Shown: positions 1 through 53,425 of the stretch, in pieces
Position numbering within the stretch: the stretch's first letter is position 1
Layout: each line of letters opens with the position of its first letter
Source: Jiangellales bacterium
GTDB taxonomy: Bacteria; Actinomycetota; Actinomycetes; Jiangellales; Jiangellaceae
Direction: 5' to 3'
DNA: 55,674 nt
Assembly (NCBI GenBank): GCA_030447955.1
Contig: JAUJNY010000003.1
Location: forward strand, 68,462-124,135
The notes under the pieces: model-generated
The model's database searches: none
What the model saw: the letters and a program-made list of their open reading frames with translations, nothing else
Told to the model about the DNA's origin: nothing
Made by a program: the position numbers and the translations under genes

Positions 1-1889
<1,889 letters not shown>

Positions 1890-16225: not shown

Positions 16226-17305
<1,080 letters not shown>

Positions 17306-30510: not shown

Positions 30511-31839
30511 TCACCCGCTCGCCGCCACCGCCGGCGGGGACGCAGCCGGCGGCGACGCATGGTGGGCGACTGCGTCGGCGTACACGTCGAGCGTGCGGGC
30601 GGCGGTCACCGACCACCCGAACCGGCTGGCGTGGACCAGCGCCCCCGCGGACAGTTCGGCCCTCAGCCGCGGTGATCCGAGCAGCCGCCCGAGCGCGGCG
30701 GCCCACGCGCTCGGCTCGTGTGACGCGACGAGGAGGCCCGACGCTCCGTCGGAGATTGCCGTACGCAGGCCCGCGACCCCAGCGGCGACCACCGGGGTGC
30801 CGCAGGCCTGGGACTCGACGGCCACCAGCCCGAACGACTCGTTGTAGGAGGGGACGACCGTGACGGTAGCCGCGCGGTACCAGTCGGCGAGGCGCTCCTG
30901 TGCCACCGGCGGCTGGAACCGGACGACGTCCGCGATGCCCAGTGCGGCGGCGAGGCGGGCCAGCTCCTCCGGTCGTTCGAGGCCGCTGCCGCTCGGCCCC
31001 CCGACCACAGCCACCACCAGCCGGGCGCGCAGCGAGGGGTCACGGTCCAGCAACTGCGCGGTCGCGCGCAGCAGCACATCCGGCGCCTTGAGCGGCTGGA
31101 TCCGCCCGGCAAAGAGCAGCACCTGCGAGTCGGGCGGCAGGCCAAGGCGAGCGCGGGCGGCGCTGGCGGGTCCCGGGCTGAACACGTCGAGGTCGACCCC
31201 GGGGTGCACCACCGCGACCCGCGCCGGGTCGGCCCCGTACAGCCCCACCAGCTGGGCAGCCTCCTCGTCAGTGTTGGCGACCAGCCGGTCGGCGGCGTCG
31301 ACGACCTGCTGCTCGCCGATGAGGCGCGCCAGCGGCTCCGGGGTGTCGCCCGCAGCCAGGGCGGCGTTCTTGACCTTGGCCATGGTGTGCATCGAGTGCA
31401 CGAGGGGCACTCCCCAGCGTTCCCTCGCCAGCCATCCGACCTGCCCGGACAGCCAGTAGTGCGAGTGCACCAGGTCGAAGTAGCCCCGCTCCTGCGCCGC
31501 CTCCACCCCCAGCATGCCCGCGGTGAACGCGCACAGCTGTGCCGGCAGGTCCTCCTTGGACAACCCCTCGAACGGCCCCGCGGTGACGTGACGCACCCGG
31601 ACCCGCGGGGAGAGCTCAACGTCCGCCAGCAGCTCGCTGGCCGTCGCCCTGGTGAACACCTCGACCTCTACGCCCAAAGTGGCCAGCCGCTCGGCCAGCT
31701 CCACGACGTAGACGTTCATCCCGCCGGCGTCACCAATGCCGGGCTGGTCCAGCGGCGAGGTGTGGACGCTGACCATGGCAACGCGGCGCGGCAGCCCGGT
31801 GCGACGTGCACCGGCTGTCCGGATCTCCCGCACCGTCAC
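30511..31839 (-). CDS. mshA: D-inositol-3-phosphate glycosyltransferase MshA
   Basis: 442 aa GT4 enzyme starting mycothiol synthesis by moving GlcNAc from UDP-GlcNAc to inositol 3-phosphate. N-terminal [30 protein letters not shown] is a hallmark, followed by [83 protein letters not shown] and the E-x7-E motif [23 protein letters not shown]. The Ala/Pro-rich C-terminus is dispensable-looking. GTG start. Confidence 0.95.
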
Positions 31840-31920
31840 CGTGCGCCTCCTTCAGGGCTGCTGTCCCAGCCGAACCGCGGGCGATCCTGCCCCATTCCGC
31901 CGCGGCGATCGCGCTCAGTC

Positions 31921-32421
31921 TCAGCTGCCGGCGCGCGCGTGGGCGAACGCGTCGTACGTCTCCGCGCCCAGCAGCACGAAGCGGGCCTCATGCACCTGCG
32001 TGGGTGTCTCGGCCACCGTCTTGACGGCGATGCGCGCCGCGTCGTGCAGCGGCCAGCCATAGACGCCGGCCGACACCGCGGGGAAGGCGACCGTGCGCGC
32101 CCCGAGCTCGTCCGCGACGGCGAGCGCCTCGAGATAGCAGGACGCCAGCAGGTCGGGGTCGCGCTGGCCCGCGGTGTAGTCCGGTCCCACCACGTGGATG
32201 ACCCAGCGGGCAGGCAGCTCGCCCGCCGTCGTCCAGCCGGCGCGCCCGGTGGGCAGGCCGTGTGGGAAACGGCGGACGCAGTCCGCGAGCACGGCCGGTC
32301 CCCCGGCCCGGTGGATGGCACCGTCGACACCGCCGCCGCCGCGCAGCCGCGTGTTGGCAGCGTTGACCAGTGCGTCGACGTGTTCGCGGGTGATGTCGCC
32401 CCGGGTGAGGGTGAGTCGCAT
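31921..32421 (-). CDS. Macro domain protein (O-acetyl-ADP-ribose deacetylase type)
   Basis: 166 aa single macro domain. LTRGDITREHVDALVNAANTRLRGGGGVDGAIHRAGG contains the N-A-A-N and GGGGVDGAIH residues that bind ADP-ribose, and FPAVSAGVYGWPLHDAARIAV forms the phosphate loop. Related enzymes hydrolyse O-acetyl-ADP-ribose or remove ADP-ribose from proteins. ATG chosen from the family start. Divergent from the L,D-transpeptidase gene. Confidence 0.92.
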   Translation of the reverse strand: MRLTLTRGDITREHVDALVNAANTRLRGGGGVDGAIHRAGGPAVLADCVRRFPHGLPTGRAGWTTAGELPARWVIHVVGPDYTAGQRDPDLLASCYLEALAVADELGARTVAFPAVSAGVYGWPLHDAARIAVKTVAETPTQVHEARFVLLGAETYDAFAHARAGS

Positions 32422-32565
32422 GGCCTCAGCCTGCCCAGCCGCGGGGCGGGCGAGCCGCAGAGTGACTCGCAGCGGACGGAAAGGTCTGCCGCCCGGTCCT
32501 TCATAAGGCACCATTGGTCCTTCGACCTTCGGCGTAGAGCCGATCCGCACGCCCGAGGAGATCAG

Positions 32566-33606
32566 GTGTCCCGTCCCCGCACCACGACTGTGGTGTCCAC
32601 CGCGCTCGTCGCCGTCCTCGCCACGGCCGGCGTCGGCGCCTGGGCCATGGCGGGGAGCGGCGCCCTGATCCCGAGTGCCGCCGGCGAGCCGCGACCAGCG
32701 GTGCCCCATTACGCCTCGTACGCACCTGGCGAGGCCGAGGGCGTCCGGCCGCCCTCCGACCAGGCGCGCGGCTGGGTTTCCTACCGCCCGAAAGAGCGGT
32801 CGACGCCGGTCGCGCAGCCGACGCCCTCTCGCACGCCGACTCCGACGCCGACCTCGACTCCCACTTCCACTCCGACCTCTTCGCCGACCACGCCGACGGT
32901 GGCGGTAAGCCCGGTCCTCCTCGACCGTAGCGACGCCGGGATCAAGGTCCGCGAGCTGCAGGCACGGCTGCTGTCCATCGGGTGGGGCGCCGGTCCCGTC
33001 GACGGCCGCTACGGCGACGCGACCGCGGCCGCGGTGGCCGGCTTCCAGGGCAAGCGGGGCTTTCCCCGCACCGGCGAGGTCGACCAGCTGACCTGGGACA
33101 CGTTGCTCGAGATGACCCTGGCCCCGACGCGGACCGCGCTGTTCCCCGGCAGGCCGGCGGCGGCCGTACCAGACCCTGAGGCCCCGCCGGAGCCGGAGGA
33201 GTCAGTTGGCCCGGTGCTTGGCCCGCGTTCCGTACTGGACCCGAGGTGCCTGACGGGTCGGGTGCTGTGCATCGACAAGACCACGCAGAAGCTGCGCTTC
33301 GTCGTCGATGGCGACGTGGTTACGAAGTTCGAGGTCCGTTTCGGCGCTGAGGGCACGCCGACGCGTGAGGGAGAGTTCGCCGTCTTCCTCAAGGACGCCG
33401 ACCACGTCTCCGGCTTGTTCGGCAGCGCGATGCCGTACTCGATGTTCTTCGACGGCGGTCAGGCGGTGCACTACTCCTACGAATTCGCCGACGAGGGCTA
33501 CGAGGGCGGTTCGCACGGTTGCGTTAACACCCGTGACATGGAGGCCACCGCCGAGGTGTTCGACATGGTCCGGGTCGGCGACCCCGTCATCGTCTACTGG
33601 TCCTAG
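32566..33606 (+). CDS. Secreted L,D-transpeptidase with peptidoglycan-binding domain
   Basis: 346 aa. Signal or anchor segment (TTTVVSTALVAVLATAGVGAWAMA), a Thr/Pro-Ser linker around residues 85-115, a PG_binding_1 domain (SDAGIKVRELQARLLSIGWGAGPVDGRYGDATAAAVAGFQ) and a C-terminal YkuD domain. Active-site SHGCVN carries Cys at about 319, within the HX(n)[ST]HGC-N rule. It likely forms 3-3 cross-links in the cell wall. GTG start with GAGGAG upstream. Confidence 0.92.
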   Translation: MSRPRTTTVVSTALVAVLATAGVGAWAMAGSGALIPSAAGEPRPAVPHYASYAPGEAEGVRPPSDQARGWVSYRPKERSTPVAQPTPSRTPTPTPTSTPTSTPTSSPTTPTVAVSPVLLDRSDAGIKVRELQARLLSIGWGAGPVDGRYGDATAAAVAGFQGKRGFPRTGEVDQLTWDTLLEMTLAPTRTALFPGRPAAAVPDPEAPPEPEESVGPVLGPRSVLDPRCLTGRVLCIDKTTQKLRFVVDGDVVTKFEVRFGAEGTPTREGEFAVFLKDADHVSGLFGSAMPYSMFFDGGQAVHYSYEFADEGYEGGSHGCVNTRDMEATAEVFDMVRVGDPVIVYWS

Positions 33607-38869: not shown

Positions 38870-39030
38870 GCCGGCGAGTCTATCGGCGGAGCAGCGGCTA
38901 GCGTGCTGGACCCGCTCAGCCATACCCGCCGACCTGGGCCGCGCCGGAATCGCCCCGGGGCGGACTGCCCTGCTCTACCGTTGTGGCTTCGTGGCTCCTC
39001 GACCGCCAGCTACCGGAGGCCATCGCCCCC

Positions 39031-43568: not shown

Positions 43569-44486
43569 GTGTCCGCTAGGGAGCGATCCTCGGCAGCCAG
43601 GGCGGCGCGTGACCGGGTACCACTGGCCTGGTACGTCACCTTGCTGCGGCAGCAGTGGCGGTTGCTGTTGGCAGCGGTTGCTACCGGTCTGTTGTTGGCG
43701 TCCGGCTTGCACATCATGCGGCCGCCAATTTATGAGGCCCGGGCGTCCGTGCTGGTCGGAGACTCGCCCTTGGACAAGGACCCACCGCGGGGTCTGCCAG
43801 CGCAGCCGCCGAGCATGGACACCGAGGCAAACGTCCTCAACTCCGCACCCGTCGCTGCCAGGGTGGCTCGAAGGACGGACCTGCCGGACGCCCGCGCCGC
43901 CGTCGAGCGCCTGCAGGTCAGCGTCCCACCCAACTCGACGATCTTGGAGGTCACCTTCCAGCACGAGCAAGCCGACGCGGCCGCGCGGGGCGCCAATGCG
44001 GCGGTCGCCGCTTACCTCGACCTGCGGCGCACAGTTATCACCGACCGGCGAAAAGAGGTTATCGCGCAGCGCAAAGAGTATGCCGGGATGCTGCGCGAGG
44101 AGCGGACCGCGCTGGAGGAAGAGCTGGCCGAGCCGTCCGTGGGAGCCGAGGAGAGACGAGTCGGCCTGCGGCTGAGGGACTCGCTGCTGCGGGCGATCAT
44201 CCTGGTCCGCAGCCAGAAGGCGTTCGCTCGCCAGCTGCCGGTCGACCCGGGACAACGGGTGTCGAGGGCGGTGGCGCCCACGTCGACCAGCGGACCTGAC
44301 CCTTCCGTGCCGCTGCTCTCCGGCACCGCAGTCTCCTTGCTACTCGGCCTGGGTGCAGCACGCTTCCGAATGGCCCGGGCAAGGACACAGCAGCCGGCGC
44401 ACGTACCGATACCCTCTCGACCGGAGCGGGACCGTCCAGTGCGCTCTAGACCCCTCAGACGAGCTCCGGTCCAGCGGGATCAGTGA
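43569..44486 (+). CDS. Wzz-type chain-length determinant protein
   Basis: 305 aa. A membrane span near residues 33-50 (LLLAAVATGLLLASGLHIM), an extracytoplasmic alpha/beta region typical of Wzz (YEARASVLVGD to LEVTFQHEQADAAARGANAAVAAYLDLRRTV), a coiled-coil segment (~150-205) and a second span near 255-272. A short basic C-terminus replaces any kinase domain. It would control polymer length with the Wzy-like protein. GTG start with CGGAGG upstream, 3 bp after the sulfotransferase. Confidence 0.8.
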   Translation: MSARERSSAARAARDRVPLAWYVTLLRQQWRLLLAAVATGLLLASGLHIMRPPIYEARASVLVGDSPLDKDPPRGLPAQPPSMDTEANVLNSAPVAARVARRTDLPDARAAVERLQVSVPPNSTILEVTFQHEQADAAARGANAAVAAYLDLRRTVITDRRKEVIAQRKEYAGMLREERTALEEELAEPSVGAEERRVGLRLRDSLLRAIILVRSQKAFARQLPVDPGQRVSRAVAPTSTSGPDPSVPLLSGTAVSLLLGLGAARFRMARARTQQPAHVPIPSRPERDRPVRSRPLRRAPVQRDQ

Positions 44487-44654: not shown

Positions 44655-46588
44655 CGGCTGCCGTCGGCGCCACCGTCCTGACCCTAGGCCTGCTCAGCAG
44701 TCAAGTGTCCGCGGTGCAAATGCCCCAACCGTCGATCGTCAGCGCGGACCCGGCGGACGAATCGCCGCATGTGTCTGATGGGTCGGTACGGGCAATACTG
44801 CAGATCGGCGATACGGTGGTGGTCGGCGGCACCTTCACGGAGGTGCGGGAGCACGGCAGCACGCAGCCCATCAAACGGTCGCGGATCTTTGCCTTCAGCG
44901 CCAGCACCGGCAAGGTCAGTCCCACCTTCAAGCCCGCCTTGAACGCCGAGGTGCTCTCCCTAGCGGCGGCTCCGGACGGGCGATCGGTCTACGTCGGCGG
45001 CGCCTTCACCAGCCGAGACGGTGTATATTCACGGAAGGTCGTGCGGCTCTCCTTGGCCGACGGCACCCGTTGGCCCGGTTTCGAGGCCCCGGCGATCAAC
45101 GATGCGGTCACAGACCTCAAGCTGTCCGGTGGACGGCTGTACGTCTCGGGCGAATTCACACAGGTCGGCGGCCAGACCCGTGCCGCACTCGCGGCGCTCG
45201 ACGCCGATACCGGCGAAACCGGCGCGAACGTAGACCTCAGGTTCTCCGGCGCGATGCGCGGCGGGGAGTTGCAGGTCATCAAGATGGACATCTCACCGGA
45301 CGGCTCACGACTGGTGGCGGCAGGCAACTTCTCCCAAGTCCTTGGCACGCCCCGGTACCAGCTCGCTGTTCTCGACCTCACCTCCGCCAAGCCGACGCTG
45401 GCCAACTGGTCGACCACCCGCTACAAGCCCGACTGCAACCTACGATTCCCGACCTACATGCGGGACGTCGACATCTCCCCGGACGGGACCTACTTCGTCG
45501 TCGTGACCAGTGGCGCCTACCGCAAGGGCCTGCTGTGTGACACCGCCGCCCGTTGGGAGTTGGGCAGCACCGGTCTCAACTTGCAACCCTCATGGGTGAA
45601 CTACACCGGCGGCGACACCCTGTTCAGCGTCGCGATCACCGGGCCGGTCGTCTACGTCGGCGGGCACCAGCGTTGGACCAACAACCCCTACGCCGGCGAC
45701 GCGCCCGGCCCCGGCGCGGTCGAGCGGTACGGCATCGCGGCACTCGACCCTCTCAACGGCCTGCCGTACACATGGAATCCCCGCCGGGACCCCCGCGGGA
45801 TCGGCGTCTTCGACATGCTATCCACCGCCGACGGGTTGTGGCTCGGCAGTGACACCAACAGGATCGGCGATGAGTGGCACGAGAAGTTGGCCTTTATGCC
45901 GCTGGCTGGCGGTTCGGTCACGCCGCTGGCCAGTCCCGGCCGACTGCCTAATGACGTCTACCTGCTGGGCCGCCGGCTGGCCGATGGCACCTACAGCGAT
46001 GCGGTAGCCAAGAAGAGCGCCTTCGACGGCACCGTGGCCGGGGGTACGGCGACGGTGCAGTCCAGCGTTCCGTGGAGCCACACCCGCGGCGCCTTCATGC
46101 TGAGCGGCTACCTTTACTACGGGTGGGACGACGGCACCCTGCGGCGGCAGTCCTTTGACGGCACCACGCTCGGCGACGTCCAGACGCTCGAGTTGCACGG
46201 TCTCACGGCCGGAGCCCCGTCATACTTCGACGTCACGTCAATCACCGGCATGTTCTTCGACAACGGCCGCCTCTACTACACGCAAGCTGGCCAGAGCCGG
46301 CTCTTCTACCGCTACTTCACCGCGGAGAGCGGGGTCGTCGGCGCCGAGCGCTTCGTGAGCTCGGACAACCTCAACGGGCTTGACTGGTCGAAGGTCAACT
46401 CCATGTTCTTCGACGCGGCGACGGACACGATCTACGCCCTCACCGGAAGCCACCAGATGAAGAAGGTCTCGCTGGTGGAGGGTCGCCCGGCCGGAGCGGT
46501 GACAGCGGTGGCGGCCAGCGCCGGGTGGCGGTCCCGGGGAGCGGTCGTCTTTGCGCCGGTGCAGGGAACCACCGCCCGCACGCCATGA
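44633..46588 (+). CDS. Secreted delta-60/beta-propeller repeat protein
   Basis: 651 aa. Signal peptide (WIRSLTAAVGATVLTLGLLSSQVSA, likely cut after VSA). Then repeated blades with GGxF motifs: VVVGGTFTEV, VYVGGAFTSRDG, LYVSGEFTQVGG, LVAAGNFSQV, VYVGGHQRW. These match DUF5122/delta-60 propellers. The C-terminal third holds further beta-rich repeats (MFFDNGRLYY, MFFDAATDTIYA). GTG 44633 has GGGGGGTG upstream; TTG 44612 is an alternative. The context suggests a surface glycan-binding or adhesive role. Confidence 0.75.
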   Translation: MFWIRSLTAAVGATVLTLGLLSSQVSAVQMPQPSIVSADPADESPHVSDGSVRAILQIGDTVVVGGTFTEVREHGSTQPIKRSRIFAFSASTGKVSPTFKPALNAEVLSLAAAPDGRSVYVGGAFTSRDGVYSRKVVRLSLADGTRWPGFEAPAINDAVTDLKLSGGRLYVSGEFTQVGGQTRAALAALDADTGETGANVDLRFSGAMRGGELQVIKMDISPDGSRLVAAGNFSQVLGTPRYQLAVLDLTSAKPTLANWSTTRYKPDCNLRFPTYMRDVDISPDGTYFVVVTSGAYRKGLLCDTAARWELGSTGLNLQPSWVNYTGGDTLFSVAITGPVVYVGGHQRWTNNPYAGDAPGPGAVERYGIAALDPLNGLPYTWNPRRDPRGIGVFDMLSTADGLWLGSDTNRIGDEWHEKLAFMPLAGGSVTPLASPGRLPNDVYLLGRRLADGTYSDAVAKKSAFDGTVAGGTATVQSSVPWSHTRGAFMLSGYLYYGWDDGTLRRQSFDGTTLGDVQTLELHGLTAGAPSYFDVTSITGMFFDNGRLYYTQAGQSRLFYRYFTAESGVVGAERFVSSDNLNGLDWSKVNSMFFDAATDTIYALTGSHQMKKVSLVEGRPAGAVTAVAASAGWRSRGAVVFAPVQGTTARTP

Positions 46589-46632
46589 AGACGCCCGGCC
46601 GACTCCAAAGAACCGAAGGATCTGAGACAGCG

Positions 46633-47601
46633 ATGACGGCTGCGGGCCAGTCGACCCGAGTCCTCTTCATCGGCGGCATAGGCCGTAGCGGCTCCACGCT
46701 GCTCAGCCAGATGCTGGGACAGGTGCCGGGCTACTTGGCCATCGGTGAGTTGGACCACCTTTGGTCGCACTCGCTGCGCCAGGACGTCGAGTGCGGCTGC
46801 GGTAAGCCGTTCCAGGACTGCGAGTTCTGGTCGGAGGTTGGCGTACGCGCCTTCGGCGGCTGGGACCAGCTGGATCTGGACAGCGTGCAGGCGCTGCAAC
46901 GCCGCGTCGAGCAGACCAGGCGCGTGCCGCTGCTCGTCGCTCCGCGTCTGGCGCCGTCCTTCCGCGATGCGCTGCGCAGCTACGCGGACTTGCTAGGACG
47001 CGTCTACGCCGCCATTGGTGAAGTGAGCGGCGCGGACGTGGTGGTGGACTCCAGCAAGTCGGTCGCTCCGCTGTACGTTCGTCGGCACATCCCCAGCGTG
47101 GACCTGCGCGTCGTCCAGCTGGTGCGGGACCCACGTGGCGTGGCCTACTCGTGGAGCAAGACGGTCCAGCGCCCTGAGCAGGCTGGCCACCAGTACATGG
47201 CGGTATGGTCCCCGCGACTGTCCTCCCGCCGGTGGATGTCGAACAACCTCCTGGTGGCTGCGCTGGATCTGGCGCGGGTGCCCCGCATGCGCGTGCGGTA
47301 CGAGGACTTGGCGCGGGATCCCGGCGGTACCCTCCGGCGCATCCTCGCCTTCGCCGGCACCCCGTCGGCCGCGGAGTTGCTGGGCTTCGTCGAGGGAACG
47401 TTGGCGGAGCTGCATCCCACGCACACGGCCTACGGCAATCCCATGCGCTTCGACACAGGGCGGATCCAGATCCGGCTCGACGAGGCATGGCGGGAGAAGC
47501 TGCCGAGCCGGCAACGCGGCACGATCGAGCTCCTCACCTGGCCGTTGCGGCTGCGCTACGGCTATAACGGCCCAGCGCGCCCGGTCGGTAAGCGGACGTA
47601 A
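46633..47601 (+). CDS. Sulfotransferase family protein 3
   Basis: 322 aa. FIGGIGRSGSTLLSQML near residue 13 is the PAPS loop, and VVQLVRDPRGVAYSWSKT near 165 is the 3'-phosphate motif. Cys-rich VECGCGKPFQDCEFW near 56 may bind metal or form disulfides. An ATG at 46585 overlaps the previous stop (ATGA), but the 16 codons it adds have poor GC3 (about half), so ATG 46633 with an upstream GAAGGA is preferred. Confidence 0.87.
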   Translation: MTAAGQSTRVLFIGGIGRSGSTLLSQMLGQVPGYLAIGELDHLWSHSLRQDVECGCGKPFQDCEFWSEVGVRAFGGWDQLDLDSVQALQRRVEQTRRVPLLVAPRLAPSFRDALRSYADLLGRVYAAIGEVSGADVVVDSSKSVAPLYVRRHIPSVDLRVVQLVRDPRGVAYSWSKTVQRPEQAGHQYMAVWSPRLSSRRWMSNNLLVAALDLARVPRMRVRYEDLARDPGGTLRRILAFAGTPSAAELLGFVEGTLAELHPTHTAYGNPMRFDTGRIQIRLDEAWREKLPSRQRGTIELLTWPLRLRYGYNGPARPVGKRT

Positions 47602-49429: not shown

Positions 49430-51040
49430 ATGGACGAGCGGTCCACCGCTGTCCGCGGCACCGCCCGTTCCCGCCCACGACAAGACCTCGCTGCGTTGGC
49501 CCGCGGCGGCAGCCTCAATCTCGTCGGAGCGGCATCGACGGGCCTCCTACAGTTCGCCCTCGTCGTCGTCATCACCAACGGTTTCCCGCAGCGCGACGCC
49601 GGTCTCTTCTTCGCGGCCACCGCCACCTTCATGATCCTCAATGCTCTCGCCCAAGGTGGCGCCGGCGCCGGAGTGATGCGCTGGGTGCCGGCGTACCTCG
49701 TCACCGGGCGCGGAGCGGACGTGCGCACCTGCCTCCGCGTGGCGTTGGCGTCCGCAGTCGTCGGCAGCGTGCTATTGGCCGCGGTGGTATGGATCACCGC
49801 CCCGCAACTCGCCGTCGTCATGAGCCGCGGGGACGACTCCGCGGGGATGGTGCCACTGCTGCGCGTGCTCGCCGTCCTGCTGCCGGTCGCCGCCGCGTAC
49901 GAAGTCATGCTGGCCGCCACCCGGGCTCATGGGACCATGCGGCCCACCGTGCTGATCGACAACATCGGCCGGATGGGAGCCCAGCCCCTGGCGGCGCTGG
50001 TGGTGCAGGCGGCTGGTGTGGGACTGATCGCCCTGGCCTACGCCTGGTCCGCTCCGTACCTGCTCGCCGCGTTGGCCGCTGCCTGGGCACTGCGTGCTGC
50101 TAGCCGTCGTCGCAGTGCCCAGGCACGTACGCCCGGAGACGCTCCCGCGCGACCGTGGTTGACGGTGGCCGTTGAGTTTTGGCGGTACACGTCCCTACGC
50201 ACCGTCGCCCGGATTGGCCAGTCCGCGCTGCAGCGCTCCGACATCATCCTTGTCGCAGCCCTGCGCTCGCCGGCTGAAGCTGCCATCTACACAGCGGCGA
50301 CCCGATTGGCCGTCATAGGTCAGCTCGGCGGACAAGCGATGGTCCGCGTGTTGCAGCCCACGCTGAGCCGGCTGCTCGCCCTCGGCGACCACAGCCGCAC
50401 GGAGGCGGTCTTCCAGACGTCGACGGTATGGTCAGTTGCCCTCACCTGGCCGGTCTTCCTGACCAGCGCTGCGCTGGCCCCCGTGCTCCTCCCGCTGTTC
50501 GGCGAGGGCTACGGCTCGGGCGCCGCAGCACTTGTGATTCTCTGCCTGGCGATGATGGTGGCCACGGCGGCCGGCCCCGTCGACGTCACGCTGGTCATGG
50601 GCGGGCGCAGCGCGCTCCAACTGTTCAACGTCGCGGCGGCGTTGATCGTCAACGTGGCGCTCAATCTGCTGCTCATCCCGCGGCTCGGCATCACCGGAGC
50701 GGCGCTGGCATGGGCGGCTGCGATCCTCACCACGAACCTGATGGCCCTGGCGCAGGTCCACCGACACCTGGGGATGCTTCCGGTCAGCGGGGGGCTTGCC
50801 TGGGTCACCGGCAGCGCGACGCTGTGCTTCGGTGTGGCCCCGCTGGCGCTGCGGCTGACAGTCGAACCGAGGCCACTGGTCATCGCGGCCTGGCTGTTGC
50901 TCTGCGCCGCAGCGTACACGGCCGCCTTGTGGCGCCGCCGCGAGCAGATCGGCGTCGCAGAGGTGCTGGACATGTACCGCCATCGACGGGACCGGAGCCG
51001 GCGGGTCGATGGGTCGACCGAGACGATCGAGAGACTGTAA
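49430..51040 (+). CDS. Wzx-type polysaccharide flippase (MOP superfamily)
   Basis: 536 aa with about 12-14 hydrophobic spans. N-terminal ALARGGSLNLVGAASTGLLQFALVVVITNGFPQRDAGLFFAATA is typical of RfbX/Wzx transporters, with WVPAYLVTGR and LFGEGYGSGAAALVILCLAMMVATAAGPVDVTLVMGGRS further on. It would flip lipid-linked repeat units before polymerisation. ATG start, 50 bp after the co-polymerase. This is the last gene of the plus-strand assembly run. Confidence 0.85.
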   Translation: MDERSTAVRGTARSRPRQDLAALARGGSLNLVGAASTGLLQFALVVVITNGFPQRDAGLFFAATATFMILNALAQGGAGAGVMRWVPAYLVTGRGADVRTCLRVALASAVVGSVLLAAVVWITAPQLAVVMSRGDDSAGMVPLLRVLAVLLPVAAAYEVMLAATRAHGTMRPTVLIDNIGRMGAQPLAALVVQAAGVGLIALAYAWSAPYLLAALAAAWALRAASRRRSAQARTPGDAPARPWLTVAVEFWRYTSLRTVARIGQSALQRSDIILVAALRSPAEAAIYTAATRLAVIGQLGGQAMVRVLQPTLSRLLALGDHSRTEAVFQTSTVWSVALTWPVFLTSAALAPVLLPLFGEGYGSGAAALVILCLAMMVATAAGPVDVTLVMGGRSALQLFNVAAALIVNVALNLLLIPRLGITGAALAWAAAILTTNLMALAQVHRHLGMLPVSGGLAWVTGSATLCFGVAPLALRLTVEPRPLVIAAWLLLCAAAYTAALWRRREQIGVAEVLDMYRHRRDRSRRVDGSTETIERL

Positions 51041-51211
51041 CGGCGGTCATCGCGATGTCTCCTAGAACCGCCAAGAATGGTCTCCTAAAGGATCACGCGG
51101 TGACTGCCATCTTCGCGCCCGAGCCACGCCGGCCCCGATCCCCTTCACTACCCTGCCGAACGGCCACTATCTGTGGAGAAAAGTTCACAGAAAGTAAGCC
51201 GCTAGGCAGTG

Positions 51212-51240
51212 TTGCACATGACCCGGGGCTGCCTTACGAT
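51212..51240 (+). promoter_or_regulatory. Sigma70-like promoter of the riboswitch transcript
   Basis: TTGCAC at 51212-51217, 17 bases, TACGAT at 51235-51240: near-consensus -35 and -10 boxes for the main actinobacterial sigma factor. Predicted transcription start is about 51247. A 9-bp perfect hairpin (51243-51265) follows at once. The preceding 170 bp after the flippase gene show no coding sequence. Confidence 0.6.
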
Positions 51241-51261
51241 CGGGCGTCCTCAGGTAGAGGA

Positions 51262-51420
51262 CGCCGTCGAATTGCGCCGAACCTGCCCCTCCGACGGTCC
51301 ACAACTCGGTAGGGCAGGAGCGGGAGACCCATTGATCGCGGCCATGCCGCGTGGGGTTTAGCCGTCTACGGACGGCCGGGGACCTCCACCCCGAACCCGA
51401 CAGCTAATCTCGTAGGCGCG
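51262..51420 (+). ncRNA. Cyclic di-AMP riboswitch (ydaO-yuaA type)
   Basis: The leader carries the conserved blocks of the ydaO aptamer in order: GCCGAACCTGCCC (51276-51288), GGAGCGGGAGACCCA (51317-51331), GGGGTTTAGCCG (51353-51364), CCACCCCGAACCCGACAGC (51386-51404) and CTCGTAGGCG (51409-51418). In Actinobacteria this RNA controls cell-wall-hydrolase genes (rpf, NlpC/P60). The aptamer ends just before the GGGAGGGG ribosome site of the GH26-like gene, which suggests translational or mixed control in cis. Confidence 0.88.
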
Positions 51421-51434
51421 GGGAGGGGTCTTCG

Positions 51435-52451
51435 TTGGACATTCGTGTTCTTGGGCGGGTTGAAGCCGCTCTTTCCAGGGCCAAGTTGCGATTGGGTGCA
51501 ACAGTGGTGGCCGCCTTGCTGATCAGCACGACGTTGTCGGGGCCACTGAGTCCTGCGGAGGCCGCTAGTTCTGCCAAGCCCATCATGTTTGGCGCGTCGG
51601 GCTCGACGCGGACGTTGGTTGAAGCGCATGAGCGGGTCCTCGGTCAGAAGCTTCGCGGTTTACGCGTCTACAAGCAGTGGGATGACGCGCTGTTCACATC
51701 GAGCCAGATTTGGGCTCGCGACACGGGTCACACGTTGTTCATGTCGATTAGCTCCGAGCGGAACAACGGGTCGAAGATCCAGTGGGCGGACATCGCCGGC
51801 GCCCAACCGGGGAGCCCGTTGTTCCAGGATATGCAGCGACAAGCCCAACAAATCAAGGCGTTTGGAGCTCGGGTCTATATTGCATTCGACCACGAGCCGG
51901 AGACGAAAAGTACGAGAGGGACGCCAGCTGCCTTCGCTGCCGCCTGGCGGAAGCTGGTCACCGTCTGGAGGGCGGCAGGTGTACAGAATGCCCGCTATGT
52001 GTGGACCATGACCGCCTATGGTTTCAAGCGGACGGACAACAAGCGCGCCGGGTTGTACTACCCCGGAGACTTGTACGTGGATCACATTGCGGCCGACGGT
52101 TACAACTGGTATCGGTGCCGCGATGCTCAGGGCGACTGGGTTGAGCTCTCCTCGGTCATCGAAGGCCAGCGGCAGTTTGGCAAGCAGCACCCCACCAAAG
52201 GCTTGATGATCTGGGAGTTCGGCAGCGCCGAGGATCCAGCGCGCCCTGGAAGAAAAGCGCAATGGTTCCGCAATGCCGCAGCGCTGTTCAAGAAGCCGGG
52301 CTACGAACAGTACAACGCTGTGCTGACGTGGGAGGGCCGCAACTACCCCGGCGGGCGTTGTAAATTCGACTACGCGAGCTCGGACTCCGCCACGGACGCC
52401 TGGGTTGAGATGGCAAAGGATTCGGCATACGCAGCCATCACGGTTACCTGA
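51435..52451 (+). CDS. Secreted GH26-like glycoside hydrolase
   Basis: 338 aa. Signal peptide (LRLGATVVAALLISTTLSGPLSPAEA). TIM-barrel with IAFDHEPE, where Glu154 is the likely acid/base, and GLMIWEFGS, where Glu261 is the likely nucleophile; VDHIAADGYNWY lies between, all as in GH26 beta-mannanase-like enzymes. The TTG start has GGGAGGGG 6 bases upstream. It sits behind the ydaO-type riboswitch and beside the polysaccharide genes, so it may trim the polymer made here. Codon use is visibly less GC-rich than in the housekeeping genes. Confidence 0.82.
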   Translation: MDIRVLGRVEAALSRAKLRLGATVVAALLISTTLSGPLSPAEAASSAKPIMFGASGSTRTLVEAHERVLGQKLRGLRVYKQWDDALFTSSQIWARDTGHTLFMSISSERNNGSKIQWADIAGAQPGSPLFQDMQRQAQQIKAFGARVYIAFDHEPETKSTRGTPAAFAAAWRKLVTVWRAAGVQNARYVWTMTAYGFKRTDNKRAGLYYPGDLYVDHIAADGYNWYRCRDAQGDWVELSSVIEGQRQFGKQHPTKGLMIWEFGSAEDPARPGRKAQWFRNAAALFKKPGYEQYNAVLTWEGRNYPGGRCKFDYASSDSATDAWVEMAKDSAYAAITVT

Positions 52452-52598
52452 GACGTGCTGATAGATGGGCGCGTGCAATGAGGTAGGCGTTGCCTCGAGC
52501 CGGCGAGGCATCTCACAGGGCTCAGCCGTGCCGGCTAATGCCCGCCGCTGCGGGCGCCCCGGGGACGTTCGACTACGCTGACTGAAATGTGAGACCCT

Positions 52599-52635
52599 CG
52601 GTGCCCGGTCGCGACTAACCCGCGGCCGGGCACCG
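52599..52635. promoter_or_regulatory. 10-bp stem hairpin upstream of the LamG-like gene
   Basis: CGGTGCCCGG (52599-52608) and CCGGGCACCG (52626-52635) are exact complements around 17 bases. It lies 23 bp before the GTG start and just after a TACGCT box (near 52574), so it would form in the 5' UTR close to the ribosome site. It could also terminate the GH26 transcript. Confidence 0.45.
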
Positions 52636-52657
52636 GCGCGTCTTGGGGGGCGGAAAG

Positions 52658-53425
52658 GTGAGGACGTATAGGTACCTTTTCGCCATAGGCGTCGCGTTGC
52701 CGGCCCTGTCGTGCGCAGCGACGGCACCAGGCGGTGACGGCACCGACGGAGCTGTCCAGATCGAACTGCATCTCGACTTCAACCGACCGCAGACCCAGGG
52801 GGCCGAGCGCTCGTTTGATGCGGGAGCGGGTGGTTGGGCCGACGCGTTGGTCATCGAGTCGCCGCCGGGCGTCCTACAGATCGTCGAGGGCGCTGAGCCC
52901 TCAAGTCGCGCCGTCGCCTTCCCGCTGTCCTGCCGAGCAAGCGCCTGCCCCCGCGCGCTTGTTCAGCTACCGGACGACGATCGACTCGATCCCAACCGGC
53001 GGAACTTCGAGTACGGCGCGAGAATCCGGCTGCCACCTGATCAGACCGCCGTCGGCTCGAACGTGGTGCAGAAGGGCCGCTACGGAACCCCCGGTGGACA
53101 ATGGAAGTTACAGGTTGACGGTGCGGAGGGCCGTCCGAGCTGCGTGCTACAGGGTGAAGTCGGCGAGGACCGTGAGACCGTGCGGCTGGTAGCCAACCGA
53201 GGCATAGCGGACAACCGCTGGCACTGGGTTACCTGCCAGATCACAGACAGTCAGCTGACCATCACGATCGACGACATGGCCCAGACGATCGACGCCGAGG
53301 TGGGGAGCGTCGGAAACGCCGCCGGGGTGCGCATCGGCGCGTCAGGTCCCAAGCCCACCGACGACCAGTTCCACGGCGTCATTGACGACGTGGTTTTCTG
53401 CCTGGATGAGTGCCGGCTGGGCTAG
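52658..53425 (+). CDS. Exported LamG-like (concanavalin-fold) protein 1
   Basis: 255 aa. N-terminal signal (YLFAIGVALPALSCAATA; a weak lipobox ALSC). The mature part has a jelly-roll pattern: NFEYGARIRLPP, GSNVVQKGRYGTPGGQWKLQVDG, DNRWHWVTCQITDSQLTITIDD and FHGVIDDVVFCLDEC. Such domains bind or degrade carbohydrates; no catalytic Glu pair is evident. GTG 52658 is preceded by GGGGGGCGGAAAG. Its stop shares CTAG with the convergent phosphoesterase. A paralogue lies at 54.5-55.2 kb. Confidence 0.72.
   Translation: MRTYRYLFAIGVALPALSCAATAPGGDGTDGAVQIELHLDFNRPQTQGAERSFDAGAGGWADALVIESPPGVLQIVEGAEPSSRAVAFPLSCRASACPRALVQLPDDDRLDPNRRNFEYGARIRLPPDQTAVGSNVVQKGRYGTPGGQWKLQVDGAEGRPSCVLQGEVGEDRETVRLVANRGIADNRWHWVTCQITDSQLTITIDDMAQTIDAEVGSVGNAAGVRIGASGPKPTDDQFHGVIDDVVFCLDECRLG

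Follow-up and report, generated by a model that had tools for sequence, protein, structure and literature searches.

The c-di-AMP riboswitch upstream of nlpC in Corynebacterium glutamicum has been tested and described as an OFF switch that leaves the transcript unchanged, going by the accessible part of the report (PMC9960051). A pseudoknot between CTCC and GGAG was proposed by the same authors, and in the text at hand it was left open there (PMC9960051). In Streptomyces, the rpfA riboswitch has been reported, in the available portions of two papers, as an OFF switch acting through transcription termination (PMC10117811, PMC8079986), and its element is said, in the accessible part of the corynebacterial study, to be without a canonical terminator (PMC9960051). 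A crystallised aptamer construct has a loop, ACUCCUUCG, with an 8-nt complementarity to its tail, CGAAGGAG, and a pseudoknot is mentioned in the available text (PMC5393176). As far as these partial sources go, the relatives of the riboswitch considered below that have been reported so far are OFF switches (PMC9960051 included).

The window, by which we mean the whole 55,674-nt stretch of DNA analysed here, contains such an element in a 394-bp intergenic leader (51041-51434) before a gene for a GH26-type glycan hydrolase (Table 1). The RF00379 (c-di-AMP, ydaO/yuaA) covariance model matches the leader at 66.9 bits (E 2.2e-13), against a gathering score of 38 bits, and the match spans model positions 1-134, which is the whole length. 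The preliminary description had placed a c-di-AMP aptamer in this leader and suggested a scan with this model; the score, well above the gathering cut-off, bears the claim out. The aptamer was also said to lie directly before the ribosome site, and indeed P1 is separated from the Shine-Dalgarno (SD) sequence by 2 nt, and the end of P1 (51419) from the TTG start by 15 nt. The element thus truly belongs to an established riboswitch class, and its target is of a category that we did not meet elsewhere in our search. The system has the same aptamer class as C. glutamicum nlpC, the same lack of a canonical terminator and an SD that is likewise complementary to CTCC (PMC9960051, in the part available). 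The nlpC target, however, is an NlpC/P60 peptidase with a tested switch, whereas here the target is of GH26 type and the switch a predicted one. With Streptomyces rpfA and other ydaO-preceded hydrolases it shares the actinobacterial setting and a secreted hydrolase, likely so in this case, as the target (PMC10117811, PMC8079986, as far as the accessible sections go); it differs from them in that the rpfA-type targets act on the cell wall, and that rpfA is reported to be controlled by transcription termination.

Table 1. Features of the riboswitch leader, its target gene and the neighbouring polysaccharide genes (positions in the window).
Feature	Position	Strand	Basis or remark
Wzz-like chain-length protein	43569..44486	+	23.7 bits vs cut-off 25.5
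Sulfotransferase	46525..47601	+	Pfam; further sulfotransferases at 38983 and 42318
Wzx-type polysaccharide flippase	49430..51040	+	PF01943
Promoter-like TTGCAC-17 nt-TACGAT	51212..51240	+	relaxed pattern match
Perfect 9-bp hairpin GGCGTCCTC-AGGTA-GAGGACGCC	51243..51265	+	near predicted transcript 5' end, before aptamer
c-di-AMP riboswitch aptamer RF00379	51265..51432	+	covariance model
P1, 5' strand GCGCC	51274..51278	+	pairs with 3' strand GGCGC 51415-51419
Helix named P3 here, 5' strand GCGGGA	51320..51325	+	pairs with 51408-51413
Hairpin GGGG-ACCTCCA-CCCC	51378..51392	+	loop CCTCC 51383-51387, predicted pseudoknot 5' strand
Helix P3, 3' strand TCTCGT	51408..51413	+	carries U51408 of the A51325-U51408 change
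SD GGAGG	51422..51426	+	also predicted pseudoknot 3' strand; 8 nt to TTG
GH26-type glycan hydrolase, 338 aa, TTG start	51435..52451	+	profile and predicted fold

For comparison we used a set of 117 RF00379 elements, made up of the best-scoring 91 of 112 matches and 26 new ones with loci among 89. In the columns where at least 85% of these elements agree, the window element departs at five positions: A51325, U51408, U51358, U51359 and C51282, the last in a gap-rich column. At A51325 and U51408 the other 116 of the 117 elements have G and C, and the window copy alone has A and U. Since these two residues face each other in P3, the change from G-C to A-U is compensatory, which speaks for conservation of the RNA fold. 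At the joint position 51359 an A is found in 116 of the 117 elements, and at 51358 a G in 107 of them; the window copy has U at both, and its ligand affinity may be reduced or changed. It could then be a decayed or ligand-changed copy, in which the fold is kept, U51359 lowers the affinity, and the element is weak, constitutive or responsive to another ligand. Three near-invariant positions are indeed changed, in a way unique among the 117, but two of the three form the compensatory pair, and the score of the window copy exceeds those of the two sister copies in the same genome (64.1 and 60.8 bits), so that we regard decay as unlikely. We infer that the window copy binds c-di-AMP.

The promoter in front of the aptamer is less persuasive. 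The preliminary description spoke of a good promoter; the only candidate is weak, with 7 of 12 consensus positions matched by our own count, and a strict promoter scan of 50900-52800 found none, this one included. With the relaxed pattern TTG[AC]NN-16..18-TANNNT, it is the only match in the window on the + strand, the one strand that was scanned. The hairpin that follows it has a computed energy of -19.0 kcal/mol; perfect 9-bp stems closing a loop of 3-8 nt occur at four sites in the window, this one included. It could serve in mRNA stabilisation.

The TTG start of the target gene is supported by the SD 8 nt upstream, and by a 338-aa homologue (P0003) that is 86% identical over the whole query and aligns from residue 1; an alternative database gene call (P0002, 288 aa) starts 50 residues later. 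Against the Pfam GH26 family (PF02156) the protein scores 19.2, under the cut-off of 20.2 (E 8.5e-4), for which reason we call it GH26-type; two paralogues, at 24.7 and 28.1, lie above the cut-off. A profile of 31 relatives finds the lichenase Lic26A of Clostridium thermocellum (2bv9) with E 1.8e-23 and 22% identity. Lic26A is also the top solved match in a Foldseek search with the AlphaFold2 model (mean pLDDT 88.9; E 3.0e-20), which indicates the TIM-barrel fold of GH26. The residues H153-E154 and E261 are invariant in the 31-sequence alignment, and E154 and E261 align, counted along the alignment, with residues 109 and 222 of 2bv9, which we take to be the catalytic acid/base and nucleophile glutamates of GH26. 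The GH26-like hydrolase that had been claimed for this gene therefore holds up by profile, by predicted fold and by both catalytic glutamates. The predicted fold and the two glutamates are what the protein has in common with Lic26A and the GH26 mannanases; the low identity to Lic26A and the embedding of the gene in a polysaccharide locus set it apart. In the model, an N-terminal helix that leads into a linker of low confidence fits, as judged by eye, a signal peptide, and the enzyme is likely to be secreted. A distant fold match to the model is PslG (structure 5bx9), a hydrolase inside an exopolysaccharide locus, from a family other than GH26. PslG-type hydrolases resemble the window gene in being glycan hydrolases beside export and polymerisation genes; we know of no riboswitch at PslG.

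How could the aptamer control this gene? The SD is complementary over 5 bp to the loop CCUCC of the 51378-51392 hairpin (computed duplex energy -10.0 kcal/mol), and a CCTCC/GGAGG pseudoknot is predicted from the sequence of the window RNA. Taken singly, this 5-bp pairing is no better than the mean of the class. The loop and the tail do, however, covary across the class. Out of the 117 elements 113 could be parsed, 99 of them unique, and 98 were used here; one mis-parsed element (L252) was left out of this set and of the set for SD pairing probabilities, and is still in the set for start spacing. The mean longest Watson-Crick stem between loop and tail is 5.19 in the 98 elements, against 4.47 when partners are permuted within type, and none of 2000 permutations, after which some relatedness remains, reaches the observed mean. 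A stem of at least 5 bp is present in 78 of the 98. The excess vanishes in shifted controls, where the tail was moved by 18 nt or another 9 nt were taken (1355 and 1450 of 2000 permutations reach the observed value), and it persists when each family and type contributes a single element (n=45; 40 draws, with 0 of 500 in every one). Loop and tail letters that change together include CCTTCCG/CGGAAGG, CTCTCC/GGAGAG and CCTCTCG/CGAGAGG.

Two layouts are seen among the class elements (L001-L037, L176-L262), one with GUAGGG and a farther start, the other with GCCGGG and a tail spaced as an SD would be. Among the type-A elements (52 of 98), a median of 15 nt separates the paired tail from the first candidate start, and this gap frequently holds another SD-like tract. 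For type B (46 of 98), to which all three elements of the host genome belong, the median is 10 nt, which puts the paired tail at SD distance in about half of the elements. These medians come from the 48 type-A and 44 type-B elements with a start. For the window element the spacing script picked another 6-bp pairing, 4 nt from the TTG, where CCTCC/GGAGG leaves 8.

The reading that we favour, with a little better than even confidence, is that of an RF00379 aptamer before a GH26-type gene in which the binding of c-di-AMP pairs the loop with the SD and turns translation off. Binding would close the aptamer, the loop CCUCC of the closed aptamer would pair with the SD GGAGG, and the SD, locked in the aptamer's own pseudoknot, would no longer allow translation of the enzyme. 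That the control is translational and of the OFF type we infer from the lack of a terminator, the 2 nt between P1 and SD, the covariation of loop and tail, and the analogy with nlpC of C. glutamicum.

Folding computations bring in the opposite sign. The minimum-energy free fold lies 9.9 to 13.7 kcal/mol, according to the stretch folded, below the aptamer fold calculated without ligand and pseudoknot, and it holds a non-aptamer hairpin (about 51382-51393 with 51419-51430) in which the SD is likewise masked. The probability of pairing between the SD and the loop region is 0.80 in the window element, against a type-B mean of 0.10 and values of 0.00 and 0.47 in the sister copies; even in the ligand-free state, then, the SD may be masked, and the switch could be of the ON type. 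In such a genetic ON switch the alternative hairpin would hold the SD until the ligand forms the 51378-51392 hairpin and P1 and so frees it. Both the presence of this hairpin in the free fold and a pairing well above the type-B mean favour it. A loop/tail pseudoknot, on the other hand, would still sequester the SD once the aptamer has formed, a complementarity of 8 nt with mention of a pseudoknot is on record for the crystallised construct (PMC5393176, in its available text), and the relatives described in the accessible sources are OFF switches; we find an ON switch improbable.

Control might also be by a transcriptional OFF switch of the kind described for rpfA of Streptomyces in the parts of those papers at hand, without a canonical terminator, which the rpfA element is likewise said to lack (PMC9960051, accessible part). 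No terminator-like site was found in 50900-52800, however, and the aptamer runs into the SD, with little room for a terminator before the gene, which makes this mechanism quite improbable here. The translational OFF switch stays our preferred reading for what follows.

The targets of the class have been said to be mostly peptidoglycan hydrolases. A simple rule, liable to misplace starts, assigns a downstream frame to 114 of the 117 elements; the NlpC/P60 frame behind one sister element (L002) was entered by hand, and 109 targets entered the scan, without that of the window and those of L183, L186, L187 and L261, whose frames are short or far. Among the 109 there are 45 NlpC/P60, 23 M23, 17 transglycosylase-like (Rpf), 3 CHAP, 3 SLT and 1 GH25 proteins, some proteins matching more than one family and some none. 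The targets that Pfam classifies are peptidoglycan hydrolases, in agreement with the statement, and a GH26-type target is therefore unusual. Since a Pfam tally at E 1e-5 would miss the window protein itself, it was repeated with the GH26-like profile, which found none of the 109 other targets at E 10 or better, and the window protein, as the positive control, at 1.6e-167.

Other searches started from the hydrolase. With up to five candidates scored per genome, 26 of 393 genomes of the class, the host (G000) included, contain a GH26-like match with an E value of 1e-30 or below, and 18 of these 26 also have RF00379. In the host, 39 bases separate the element from the matched part of the GH26-like gene. 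Elsewhere, the nearest pairs on a shared contig stand on opposite strands, at distances of 4.9, 5.1 and 5.2 kb (G137, G146 and G347), and the nearest on the same strand at 8.5 kb (G260); in none of the 25 other class genomes that carry a GH26-like gene does the element immediately precede that gene. An initial set of 60 relatives, read by eye, had no GH26-like match beside the element except in the host. A first scan with the single protein as query found no relatives; a later scan of named genomes found 169, of which 80 loci were kept and all searched for RF00379: none has the element before the GH26-like match, one of them (L091) reaching 261 bases upstream, too short to show a leader, and the two matches that do occur (L082, L090) are on the opposite strand, some 5 kb beyond the GH26-like match. 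The preliminary description had suggested looking for the same leader before GH26-like genes of relatives; the answer is negative in the 25 genomes and the 80 loci, and the pairing has thus far been met a single time, in one assembly. A conserved pairing of element and GH26-like gene was considered and rejected on the same counts. An open-access literature search, covering its sources in part, gave no account of a GH26 gene or a polysaccharide hydrolase preceded by a c-di-AMP riboswitch.

The host assembly measures 2.27 Mb in 10 contigs (81.85% complete, 0.72% contaminated). It holds three RF00379 elements; the first sister (L002) precedes an NlpC/P60 peptidase, and the second (L003) a protein with transglycosylase-like (Rpf-type) and LysM parts, both of them target types that are customary in actinobacteria. 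A gene with a diadenylate cyclase (DAC) domain (G000:C9:359736, E 7.3e-26) suggests that the host makes c-di-AMP. The DAC domain is present in 20 of 21 other genomes of the same family (G001-G021), and RF00379 in none of the 21, also in a second run that scored more candidates. With its three elements, the host is an exception among the same-family genomes examined.

The surroundings of the gene were said to contain sulfotransferase and Wzx/Wzy genes. The sulfotransferases and the Wzx-type flippase stand; the Wzy-like part does not reach that level, the match of the upstream O-antigen-ligase-like protein being under the cut-off. Another upstream protein, read as Wzz/BY-kinase-like, has a weak AAA_31 match, also under the cut-off. 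Past the end of the window the contig continues with a GH26-type gene, a protein with two GH26-like stretches, glycosyltransferase domains and more sulfotransferases. The genome has five GH26-like stretches, four of them within 12 kb, and the riboswitch stands before the first only. The tandem pair downstream of the window is in a single open frame (G000:C7:129731-131686; L203 11788-13899). Two other frames there are fusions, one of a GT2 glycosyltransferase with a laminin-G domain (L203 7652-9307, -) and one of a GT28-type domain with a sulfotransferase (L203 9304-10899, -). Within the window we also observed, close to the polysaccharide locus, an L,D-transpeptidase that carries a peptidoglycan-binding domain (31204-33606, +), and, elsewhere, an msiK RNA motif (RF01747; 16166-16222, +; 44.5 bits) directly before the frame 16226-17305.

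It is plausible that the enzyme acts on the sulfated polysaccharide of this locus, which would link the switch to the remodelling of that polymer. The enzyme would trim or release the sulfated polysaccharide made by the surrounding genes, and a fall in c-di-AMP would loosen this outer glycan together with the peptidoglycan, the other two copies of the element being those before peptidoglycan hydrolases. The enzyme may instead act on peptidoglycan-linked or foreign glycans, the switch being one of ordinary cell-wall control, an alternative that concerns the last step only and is compatible with any switch mechanism. The class targets that Pfam classifies are wall hydrolases, and a GH26-type assignment leaves the substrate unspecified; yet the nearest solved relatives, by profile and fold comparison, are named lichenase, xylanase and mannanase, and the gene and three more GH26-like domains adjoin flippase, sulfotransferase and glycosyltransferase genes. 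We consider this alternative a serious possibility, if a somewhat doubtful one. Our preferred translational switch can be carried further, and here tentatively: c-di-AMP may directly control an extracellular-polysaccharide hydrolase by a pseudoknot of the aptamer that locks the SD, and this lock may be the general expression platform for some half of the c-di-AMP riboswitches of the actinobacterial class; one signal would then loosen both the peptidoglycan and an outer sulfated glycan.

If this is true, c-di-AMP, a signal of salt and cell-wall stress, would be tied to the outer sugar coat, and a GH26-type target in a sulfated-polysaccharide locus would extend the reach of that signal to the capsule or matrix. 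The covariation between the loop and the ribosome-binding region across the class would, in turn, offer a testable general mechanism of translational control for this riboswitch class.
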